The notes under the pieces: model-generated
Told to the model about the DNA's origin: nothing
The model's input: the letters and a program-made list of their open reading frames with translations, nothing else
Database searches by the model: none
In this document: one piece after another, positions 1 to 64,000 of the stretch
Position numbering within the stretch: the first letter of the stretch is position 1
Layout: every line of letters begins with the position of its first letter
NCBI GenBank assembly: GCA_030272155.1
Contig: CP126198.1
Coordinates: 558,001 to 622,000 of the forward strand
Direction: 5' to 3'
Length of the DNA: 64,000 nt
DNA from: Tetradesmus obliquus
Taxonomy: Eukaryota; Chlorophyta; Chlorophyceae; Sphaeropleales; Scenedesmaceae
Position numbers and translations under genes: made by a program

Positions 1-3000
1 ACCTCACTCAGCAAGCTGCCAAGTGTACTGCTGCTGCCACTCACGTGCCTCCCAGCAGCAGCAGCAGCAGCAGCAGGTGTGGCCCTCAGCCACCCCCTGC
101 TAAAATCCTTGCTTGCTGCTGCTGTAAAATGCAGCAGCAGGTAACCACCCTCTGCATCTGGCACTTCTAGGGCCTCCCCTGAATCCAGATACAGCAATCC
201 ACAGCCGGCTAGCTGCATCTCACTGCTGCTGCTGCTGCTGCTGTTCCCTGCGGCTGTCGCTGCAGCCAGTACTGCTGCAGGTACAACTGTACTGCAGCGA
301 TCCTGCAGTGCTGTACTGCCTTGTACAGCCTGATCTGTACTGGTGCTAGTATCCAAAGCTAGCATAAGCGTCAGCGGTGACGCCCGTACTGCTGCTGTTG
401 TATTTGCATACTCCTGCAAAGTCAGCACACTGCCACCCCGCAGGTGCAGCGGTATATCGCCAACTGGTGCCTGCAGGGTTTGGGGTTTTGGGCCCTGTGC
501 TGTTAGGGTTTGGTCCCAGAGGTTAAACCATGTGCCTGGGGGAAAGTTAGCCTGCCTGCTTGATTTGCCTTCATCCAGGATGGGGCTCACTAGCACGCTG
601 TCACCTAGCAGCCACTGGTCGGCAACATTCCTGCAGGGCACGATTGTAAAGCAATGGTGGCAAAAAAGGGATGCAAAACTGTGCGAGTGTGACTCAAGAC
701 AGTTTGCACGCAGGTGCAAAGTGTGCTAGCGCTGCTTGTGAGAGCAGCAATGGGTGTCTGAGATGGCTCCGTGCAGCGCATCAAAAACATGCACACCGCA
801 CAACAGTCTGCCAGCGCCGAACCCTTCCTGCACCAAACGCCAGTTCGAACCCACCTGGCCACAAAGTCGTCCGGAAAGGCAAAAAGCAGCGGCTGCGCCA
901 CGGCCCCTCCCTGCACATGTGCCCTGAAGTGCCAGCTGTACAGGTGTGGCAGCAGCCTGTATCGCATGCCTAAGGCTTTCTTTGCTGCTGCTGCCACAGC
1001 GGGCCATGTGTAGGGCTCCTGGGGGCTGCTGTAGAGGCTGTTGTGGTTGCGGGAGAAGGTGTAGAAAGCACCCGCCGACATCCACCTGTGAGGAAGAGAC
1101 GCGCAGCAGGAGGAAGCAGCAGCGGCAGCAGCAGCAGAGCACACTTCAGTTCATCATCATGGTGGTTTCTGAGTGACTTTTTCCAGCTGAAACCGCACAG
1201 AGAATAGCATGCCTAGGGCCTTCTTTGCTGCTGCTGCCACAGCCGGCCATGTGTAGGGCTCCTGGGGGCTGCTGTAGAGGCTGTTGTGGTTGGGGGAGAA
1301 GGTGTAGAAGGCACCAGCTGACATCCACCTGCAGCAGCATCAGCGGCATCAGCGGCAGCAAAGTGCACCAGATGCTGATCATGCGGTTGCGGAAAAGGTG
1401 TAGAAGGCACCAGCATACATCCACCTGCAGGAGGGAGCAGCGGCAGCAGCGTGCAGCAGTGTATTGAACTGAGGACAGGTGATGGTGATGTCGAAGGGTG
1501 CCTGCCGGTAACTGCCTGCGGCAGCAAAGAAAACACCCAAAATGGACGGGGTCTGGCTAAAACTCCACCCATGACGGCATTATTCAGAAGTGACCGCTTG
1601 CACAGGCAACAGTCAACAAACAGGTGCACACCCTCAGCCCCTCAGCCCTCACACCTGGCGCACAATTCTTCTGTGCTGTTTCCCACAAACCCGCAGATGT
1701 CTGCTCCAGCCTGTGGCATGCCCCACATGCCGGCAGCCAGCAGAGCAGCCACCGACTGCCGCAGCCCCGCCCAGGTGGCGTTGTTGTAGCAGGCAGCATG
1801 TCCCACCACACCACTCATCAGGCAACAGTGGCTGCAGCGGCAATGCAACAGCAAACCACTATGTCTGTGTGCCTGGCGCTCACCTGGCACACAGCTCCTC
1901 CGTGCTGTTTCCTAAGAAGCCGCATATGTCTGCTCCCGCCTGTGGCATGCCCCAAAGTCCGGCAGCCAGCAGAGCAGCCACTGACTGCCGCAGCCCTGCC
2001 CAGGTGGCGTTGTTGTCGCCAGACCAGTGCGCAGCAAAGCGGCCTGACCCGGGGAAAGAGGACCTGTGGTTGCAGCAGCAGCAGCAGCGCCATACAATCA
2101 TACGGAACTGCGTCACAGCAGATGCTGGTGCTGAAACGCAAACACTGTGATGCCAGGAACTGCGGCTGCGTACAGCAGCACGTCGCGGGTACAGAAAGCT
2201 AAGCCCCGGTCAGCGGGATTTCCTCGTGTCTGCAGCTGTGCGGGGATAACCTCAACTAACAGGCACAACCCACCTGGTCAGTATGAACGGCCGCTTGCCA
2301 AGGACAGTCTTGAGCGCCGCATGCGTAGCCGCAGCACAGCATGCAGCACACTGCAGGTGGAGAGAGCGAGGCCGTGGCCAGCTGGTAGAATTATGCAGCA
2401 GCTGGCTCATGTCTGCAGCTGTTTAGAATATATAAACGAGAGCTTGCCTGGTCAGTATGAATGGCCGCTTGCCAAGGACAGTCTCCAGCGCTGCATGCGT
2501 AGCCGCCGCCTCCGACAGGCCGTATATGTTATGTGTGTTATATAACAACTCTCCATCAACCCCAGTCGCACTCATCGCCACTGTCTTCTTCCCAAGGGCA
2601 CTCGGCTGCTTGATAGATCCACGGACGCCGTGTGCGATTGAATACGGGGGATATGCGATGCTGCTGCTGCCGTTTGTAGCTTGCACGCAGTCCAAATGGC
2701 ATGTTGTGAGATCCTTGAGTTGGTCGAGCTCCTGATCTAGGTAGCCGTGGGAAGCCTCGTGCGGCTGCTTGCTGGAGCCTGCAAAGTAACAATGTCAGTA
2801 ACATGTAAAGTAACTTTAGATGTCATGGGAAATGATCTAGTCAGCCGTGTGACGCCTCGTGCGGCTGCTTGCTGGAGCCTGCGCAGTAACATTGTCAGTA
2901 ACATGTTAAACAATACATTAGATGTCATTATCAGTAACATGTGACGTAAAAAACGCAGATTATGTGTGGCATGTCAGCAGATGTTGTGCGGGTGCTTGCT

Positions 3001-64000: not shown

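Follow-up and report, generated by a model that had tools for sequence, protein, structure and literature searches.

In tandem exon duplication with mutually exclusive splicing, whole exons with both of their splice sites are copied. The AG|GT route to new introns needs a duplicated segment that lies within an exon; the start of the new intron then resembles the start of the following exon, and its end resembles the end of the preceding exon. We compared such systems with a 64,000-base stretch of the genome of the green alga Tetradesmus obliquus (C8:558001-622000, called the window below, from an assembly of 104,662,953 bases or about 104.7 Mb in 17 contigs), in which spare copies of exon ends with their donors, or of exon starts with their acceptors, lie in the introns that adjoin the intact exons. 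The window has a G+C content of 56.5% and carries multi-exon eukaryotic genes, including those of a GH31 glycosidase, a Ras-family GTPase, a glycine cleavage H protein and a Na_sulph_symp-family transporter (Pfam labels). The joined exons of the GTPase match PF00071, and we take it to be RABL2-like; this and similar gene names are our assumption. Genes resembling the Rdx family (SelT-like) and the adaptor small chain score under the Pfam cut-off. Tandem alternative exons are like the T. obliquus copies in that duplicated coding sequence and splice sites are conserved while the introns have diverged, but the T. obliquus copies mostly comprise one exon edge and one splice site.

The nearest precedent is the potato RdRp gene, in which a tandem duplication across an intron-exon border made a new intron (PMC4974935; the papers of this paragraph are cited from excerpts of their text). 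As in T. obliquus, the potato duplication crosses the border and carries the acceptor and the exon start. It is, however, a single locus with a demonstrated new intron, whereas the T. obliquus copies, known from the genomic sequence alone, occur at many loci, involve exon ends as well as exon starts, can stand several to a border and are under coding-type constraint. The tandem duplication of AGGT-bearing exon segments (Rogers; Gao and Lynch), described in PMC3443670 and PMC4974935, is likewise a short internal duplication beside splice-like signals, but it needs a duplication within an exon, a geometry absent from our T. obliquus sample. In Daphnia the direct repeats of neointrons are ascribed to staggered breaks (PMC4202315), and the T. 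obliquus repeats are also tied to introns and have a plausible break-repair origin, although the Daphnia exon-intron repeats are 4-12 bases long and lie at new introns, whereas ours are about 40-140 bases long and lie at existing ones. Introners resemble the present case in that one process has shaped many introns of one genome, green algae included, but they are one element spread across genes (PMC9860276), whereas the T. obliquus copies match only their own neighbouring exon, border queries having found no match in the border regions of other loci (0/348; introns were not clustered genome-wide). Scenedesmus and Tetradesmus have no occurrences in the main text of PMC9860276.

The pattern was not described for Tetradesmus or Scenedesmus in the literature that we searched, by ranked, non-exhaustive results, and the words intron, tandem and alternative splicing are absent from the main text of PMC7590803. 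Spare exon edges under an unexplained coding-type constraint are new to us.

Occurrence and anatomy of the copies

A first-pass annotation of the window had claimed that exon borders are copied in tandem into the neighbouring introns of nearly every gene. By self-comparison, with copy clusters defined as direct self-matches at most 600 bases apart after masking of simple repeats, we found 93 self-matches that form 30 clusters. A composition-matched Markov-resampled shuffle gave no cluster, and no pairs more than 3 kb apart were found. By our own reading of three combined analyses the copies fall in nine loci: the GH31 glycosidase, the RABL2-like GTPase, a gene at 26-30 kb, a Cys-rich gene at 31.8-37.6 kb, a gene at 44.5-45.2 kb (where the copies are partly protein repeats), a RAP-type gene, the adaptor-small-chain-like gene, the glycine cleavage H protein and the transporter. 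This agrees with the nine genes counted in the first-pass annotation, and the copies are real.

For comparison we took twenty 10-kb stretches, one per contig starting at position 1,000,001 and three others. These are preset positions rather than a random draw, and satellites and transposon-like DNA are included (L005, L017, L018 and L021). The stretches held 83 clusters, some of which are satellite or transposon-like arrays (L005, L017 and L021), and all shuffles held none. At least one cluster was present in 15 of the 20 stretches, on many contigs, and none in L002, L003, L004, L008 and L018. The view that unrelated gene families are affected, and that this is a property of the genome, was borne out.

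Exons were those predicted by our own generalized hidden Markov model (GHMM) gene finder, self-trained on the same DNA. Its reading frames agree with all 27 Rab-family loci tested, which is no independent test because Rab fragments were among the training seeds, and it called some copies exons. For predicted exons of at least 60 bases, 62/190 had an exon-end copy within 900 bases downstream and 38/189 an exon-start copy upstream, giving direct copies at 100/379 borders. Run on the opposite side of the exon, these queries matched in 30/369 cases, and reverse-complement queries found no inverted copies (0/379). Setting aside 14 exons that are themselves copies left 53/179 ends and 27/176 starts copied on the intron side (80/355 primary borders). 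A 66-base piece of intron adjoining the border was copied further out in 33/290 cases. Rab-family exons, found with the Pfam Ras model, had fewer copies (3/48 borders versus 80/355 overall; Fisher p 0.007), in a scan whose exon-length and masking filters differed slightly from those of the general border scan; our guess is that splicing of conserved genes is under stronger selection. Border copies are a genuine feature of the T. obliquus genome, more marked in some genes than in others and common but not universal: 'nearly every gene' describes the window, but not the 80/355 borders, the five empty stretches or the Rab exons beyond it.

Enrichment at exon borders, whose absence in a genome-wide alignment would have refuted the first-pass annotation by its own account, held in our sample. 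Among the 111 best pairs of the window and the twenty stretches, a predicted exon border lay inside 65% (0.649) versus 35% (0.348) under random shifts, and the 26 pairs with at least 95% identity gave 65% versus 32%. Intergenic sequence was avoided, with 7% of the 111 pairs being more than 80% intergenic versus 18% by random shifts. Part of the border enrichment may come from longer visibility of exon-bearing copies and from the gene finder calling copies exons.

The spacing of the 111 pairs was 101-394 bases (5-95%) with a median of 151, the median aligned length was 116 bases and the median identity 87%. Young, near-perfect full tandem units that include intron lie at 61257-61488 of the window (period 118, 99% matches), L019 8465-8701 (99% over 143 bases) and L006 3963-4614. 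These complete young units, together with the direct-only and local pattern, show that local tandem duplication is the source of the copies. Measured by the pattern of a simple tandem repeat or minisatellite, with head-to-tail units of equal period that include intron, 27/111 pairs were complete in masked alignments. By unmasked extension the aligned length was below 0.8 of the spacing in 66/111 pairs, and thus unrelated spacer lies between the copies. In 41 exon-end copies identity was 91.5% over the last 30 exon bases, 92.7% at +1 to +2 and 85% at +3 to +6, and then fell intronward (ungapped) to 67% at +7 to +12 and 55% at +13 to +40. In 20 exon-start copies it was 92.4% in the exon, 100% at -3 to -1 and 65% at -12 to -4. 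The GT or GC was intact in 37/41 exon-end copies and the AG in 20/20 exon-start copies, in line with the earlier statement that copies carry the donor or acceptor. The profile around the border therefore shows that the retained part is the exon edge plus the splice signal. The accompanying statement that copies often include flanking intron fits the young full units, but most copies keep only the splice signal.

The duplicated unit is an existing exon-intron border, and hence an old intron is lengthened. The AG|GT duplication route to new introns, put forward in the first-pass annotation, found no support: its signature was present at both ends in 0/177 introns and at one end in 2, and both copies were wholly exonic in about 1 of the 111 pairs (0.009). 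We therefore regard a new-intron factory as not supported. That the copies are nevertheless intermediates on the way to new introns seems highly improbable to us, although the potato gene gained an intron by just such a border duplication, with a geometry that our exon-start copies share (PMC4974935, in excerpt), and T. obliquus has a mean intron of 462 bases versus 230-302 bases in four other green algae (PMC5966456, in excerpt). The missing two-sided signature speaks against intermediates, as does the fact that the copies adjoin existing introns and lengthen them; the 462-base mean, given in the excerpt for strain UTEX 393, is in line with introns growing by such duplications.

Coding-type divergence

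The differences between copy and exon by codon position were 108, 98 and 248. For analysis of divergence we reduced the 111 pairs to 71 in which the intact exon was clear: five arrays of coding repeats in the window were removed by hand, and 35 more pairs fell under the length or codon minimum. These 71 pairs had 196 silent and 132 replacement differences, a ratio of replacement to silent divergence (dN/dS) of 0.19 (0.15-0.25), equal for exon-end and exon-start copies, and a proportion of silent differences (pS) of 0.21; their 1287 codons held 1 stop and 19 frameshift gaps. Twelve pairs with a frameshift gap gave 0.23 and the 59 without gave 0.18. A wider set of 80 pairs gave 0.24 with 2 stops, and homology-verified genes only, Rab included, gave 0.15 (69.5 silent, 41.5 replacement). 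Selection on the intact exon alone cannot bring the ratio much under 0.5. In agreement, neutral copies whose simulated substitutions and gaps followed the spectrum seen in aligned non-coding parts gave 0.44-0.52, and in the nearest simulation, at a pS of about 0.16, somewhat below the 0.21 observed, they accumulated about 11 stops and about 80 frameshifts per 1287 codons. The silent share was 0.60, compared with at most 0.48 in 5000 draws of the neutral-copy model most favorable to neutrality.

Neutral decay of the copies was rejected by dN/dS and the simulations, with uniform as well as empirical spectra. The related proposal that the copies are dead debris, remnants of tandem duplication that simply decay, draws on their graded identity, the loss of alignable intron, the frameshifts in some copies and the youngest class of pairs (divergence below 6%), in which 31 silent differences stand beside 30 replacement differences, only a weak departure from the neutral expectation. 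Given the dN/dS, the few stops and frameshifts and the silent share, we consider it improbable. The first-pass description of copies as graded from identical to decayed was correct for identity, but neutral decay does not describe them, as the differences are mostly silent and frameshifts and stops are few relative to simulation.

The branches private to the copies show the constraint as well. In 31 arrays with at least three versions, changes private to copies numbered 86.5 silent and 76.5 replacement with 3 stops (per-site ratio 0.28) and 34 frameshift gaps, and changes private to the intact exon 16.5 silent and 9.5 replacement. The copy-private and pairwise divergence together argue that most copies were long under coding-type selection and that some are now damaged. 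We calculate that the counts of replacements, stops and frameshifts would all be matched if a longer phase of constraint were followed by a neutral one averaging about 0.025 per site; the 0.05 row of the neutral simulation had 3.3 stops and 17.3 frameshifts. A calibration of intron against silent divergence by a pair of paralogues was unusable because the two GTPase-like gene copies concerned (L050 and L051, C2 near 3,007,543 and 3,011,942, 4.4 kb apart) are 100% identical over 2,218 bases.

Haplotype divergence would also account for the coding constraint, a copy then coming from the other haplotype either by duplication between homologues or by an assembly that strings two haplotypes together. 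Silent divergence does fit two classes, one near 0.02 with about 20% of pairs and one near 0.25 with about 80%, slightly better than a continuous spread (log-likelihood -134.2 versus -137.2). For the relative NREL 46B-D3 a likely diploid state with separated haplotypes is described (PMC7955037, in excerpt). However, at least three versions more than 4% apart were present in 28/42 arrays (some of which overlap), more than two haplotypes can supply. By inspection, two copies are often about as far from each other as their distances to the exon add up to. Between strains the RAP protein, the one protein compared, is 97% identical over the aligned part, which would leave little room for a silent distance of 0.25. 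Hence we judge an allelic origin to be unlikely, and the stringing of two haplotypes as sole cause is contradicted by the arrays with three or more versions. When a RAP-protein alignment was scanned once each against the viral contigs and the genome contigs, no independent DNA of relatives was found.

Splicing or exchange as a possible source of constraint

The main rival to the mechanism that we tentatively favor (below) is use in cis: some transcripts would include the spare exon end or start in an alternative exon, both versions being translated and conserved. Coding-type constraint on both branches and the conserved splice signals are what translated alternative exons should show, and a Rab7-like gene (C17 near 2,556,500-2,557,400) has a 123-base exon-end copy with 4 silent differences and 1 replacement difference; two more exon-end pieces lie close by, one of them badly decayed by inspection. 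The sequence tests for splicing-in nevertheless gave no sign of it. The spacings had no frame preference (remainders of 0, 1 and 2 modulo 3 in 14, 16 and 17 exon-end pairs and in 11, 7 and 6 exon-start pairs), with divisibility by three in 14/47 and 11/24, and no dependence on reading frame is expected if copies are not spliced in. Inspection of the inner ends of copies in 42 pairs (23 exon-end and 19 exon-start) found no regular AG or GT signal. A seamless join from an in-register GT in the upstream copy to an AG in the downstream copy was available in 16/71 pairs versus 14 in a control of reversed order, and a copy read as a cassette, its missing splice site supplied by the best-scoring candidate, was in frame in 13/34 and 8/18 cases. 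No excess was seen of alternative 5' or 3' splice sites in frame, of joins without a trace inside the copies or of in-frame cassettes. The annotated RAP-gene proteins of three genomes also lack the copy found in that gene. Cis use is therefore doubtful in our estimation.

What we hold, as a possible and still tentative reading, is that border-spanning tandem duplications lengthen introns and that the copies stay exon-like by exchange with, or deletion into, the working exon edge. Short tandem duplications with a span of about 100-260 bases, of which complete young examples are seen, arise often in this genome. Those spanning a border would be tolerated because one complete exon and splice site remain, and each lengthens the old intron and leaves a spare exon edge and splice site inside it. 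Later the intron parts diverge fast while the spare edge and its splice signal do not, as the identity profiles show. Gene conversion, unequal exchange or deletion between copies could then move spare sequence into the working position, and any lineage in which that sequence would damage the protein or its splicing signal would be lost. The copies would accordingly be a by-product of array instability, neither new introns nor regulated alternative exons.

Exchange between copy and exon is suggested by identity that is limited to the exon together with the absence of a frame or junction signal. No silent difference was present in 11/50 pairs with unalignable introns, where about 4.9 would be expected at a pS of 0.2, and L007 228-307 and 616-695 are 100% identical over 80 bases flanked by diverged introns. 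Several points weigh against this mechanism. Exchange is seen only through its expected traces, no exchange event having been observed, and frequent exchange should erase silent differences, yet pS averages 0.21, so that the model needs either selection on rarely exposed sequence or slow exchange. The gradient that the model predicts, with constraint strongest next to the border, is weak (ratios of 0.22, 0.14, 0.26 and 0.25 by distance), and constraint shows no dependence on spacing. Many copies are not fully constrained now, as the 19 frameshift gaps of the 71 pairs and the 34 gaps and 3 stops of the 31 arrays attest, and the exon calls are those of our self-trained gene finder.

A partial copy of an exon in an intron should in time either decay or turn into an exon; the large T. 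obliquus set, with copies of all ages, does neither and keeps splice signals and codon structure without visible use. Use in RNA would make the copies an exceptionally large stock of near-synonymous alternative exon edges. Without such use, selection would act only because recombination can expose the sequence, an effect that is seldom testable. Scaling 83 clusters per 200 kb to the genome gives about 43,000. It is conceivable, although we would not lean on it, that T. obliquus holds tens of thousands of live spare exon edges kept competent for protein and splicing by swapping or by reading in cis, a large part of its introns serving as a reservoir from which the neighbouring exons are rebuilt. 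Gene prediction is also affected, as other annotation of T. obliquus may likewise call copies exons.

Copies in individual genes

The GH31 gene (minus strand) has the fullest set. Its exon ending ...GKPYLGQ is intact at 5205-5348 (88% identity by tblastn with P0014, the orthologous protein of Scenedesmus sp. NREL 46B-D3; GHMM exon 5208-5346). A first exon-end copy with donor follows at 4963-5079 (self-comparison and tblastn) and a second, more diverged, at 4841-4906 (tblastn and border scan). The pair 4948-5080 and 5190-5322 has 10 silent and 2 replacement differences over 38 codons. By tblastn with P0014 further intact exons lie at 4112-4210, with an exon-start copy and acceptor at 4432-4494 (self-comparison and tblastn), and at 1883-2065, with an exon-end copy and donor at 1652-1790 that has 14 silent and 4 replacement differences over 44 codons. 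The intact exon at 854-1085 (GHMM and tblastn) has an exon-start copy with acceptor at 1204-1331 and an additional piece at 1370-1427. The border scan added exon 7051-7182, with exon-end copies at 6886-6931 and 6968-7002 and an exon-start copy at 7248-7303; exon 6496-6595, with exon-end copies at 6370-6416, 6242-6291, 6122-6168 and 5998-6038; and exon 7767-7845, with exon-end copies at 7632-7696 and 7525-7584. Each exon concerned is present once in P0014, and the extra pieces are therefore surplus to the protein, as the first-pass annotation had held.

In the RABL2-like gene (minus strand) the intact exon 19282-19393 (GHMM; PF00071 on the joined exons) has an exon-end copy at 19145-19183, made of 34 exon bases plus GTGCG and 97% identical, and exon 18542-18720 has an exon-start copy (with CTGCTGCAG) at 18837-18894. 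The SelT-like reading frame at 22197-22522 (Rdx family, 20.1 bits, under the cut-off) is without border copies. In the Cys-rich gene (plus strand) a near-tandem array at 31822-32377 (period 196-201) holds about 2.8 copies of an exon end with donor, and in the array at 32675-33951 one exon is copied with its splice sites (self-comparison and GHMM). By border scan, exon 35572-35745 of this locus has exon-end copies at 35926-35991, 36178-36243 and 36435-36500, and exon 37223-37366 has exon-start copies at 36728-36793, 36869-36925, 36997-37044 and 37089-37154, as well as an exon-end copy at 37522-37557.

The RAP-type gene (plus strand) has an exon-end copy of exon 50046-50588 at 50703-50746 (border scan). 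This copy is absent from the annotated proteins P0124, P0140 and P0141, and the exon end is present once in the annotated proteins of OEZ86, T. obliquus A0A383VFE3 and NREL 46B-D3. In the adaptor-small-chain-like gene (53979-54232, plus strand) the exon end occurs twice, at 53979-54064 and 54147-54232 (spacing 168). The CAG-rich spacer is open in frame, making a longer in-frame protein possible, unlike in most arrays. Both glycine cleavage H arrays are on the minus strand. At 58173-58440 (period 100), exon 58401-58478 has exon-end copies at 58295-58339 and 58195-58240; at 56895-57242, the last exon, 56895-57005, has exon-start copies at 57081-57133 and 57186-57242. The transporter array (61123-61609, minus strand) consists of exon 61123-61340 and exon-start copies at 61397-61457 (78 bases identical) and 61549-61609.

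Outside the window, L018 (C17:1000001-1010000) has one predicted exon set three times, about 4.28 kb apart, with transposase-like text and no exon-border copies. In L017 a satellite-like array with offsets of 274 and 551 and an identity of about 95% takes up positions 1-3955, next to transposase-like coding sequence at 7202-10000. For introns of the window and the sample, CTG recurs with a period of 3 ahead of TGCAG in the trained acceptor profile, and many of them seem to end in CTG repeats followed by CAG; these trinucleotide repeats may serve as pyrimidine tracts, drift during self-training being an alternative. In L022 (C16:2800754-2801236) a Rab-type protein is encoded in a single open 550-base exon, whereas other Rab matches are split over several exons, and this gene is perhaps a retrocopy.

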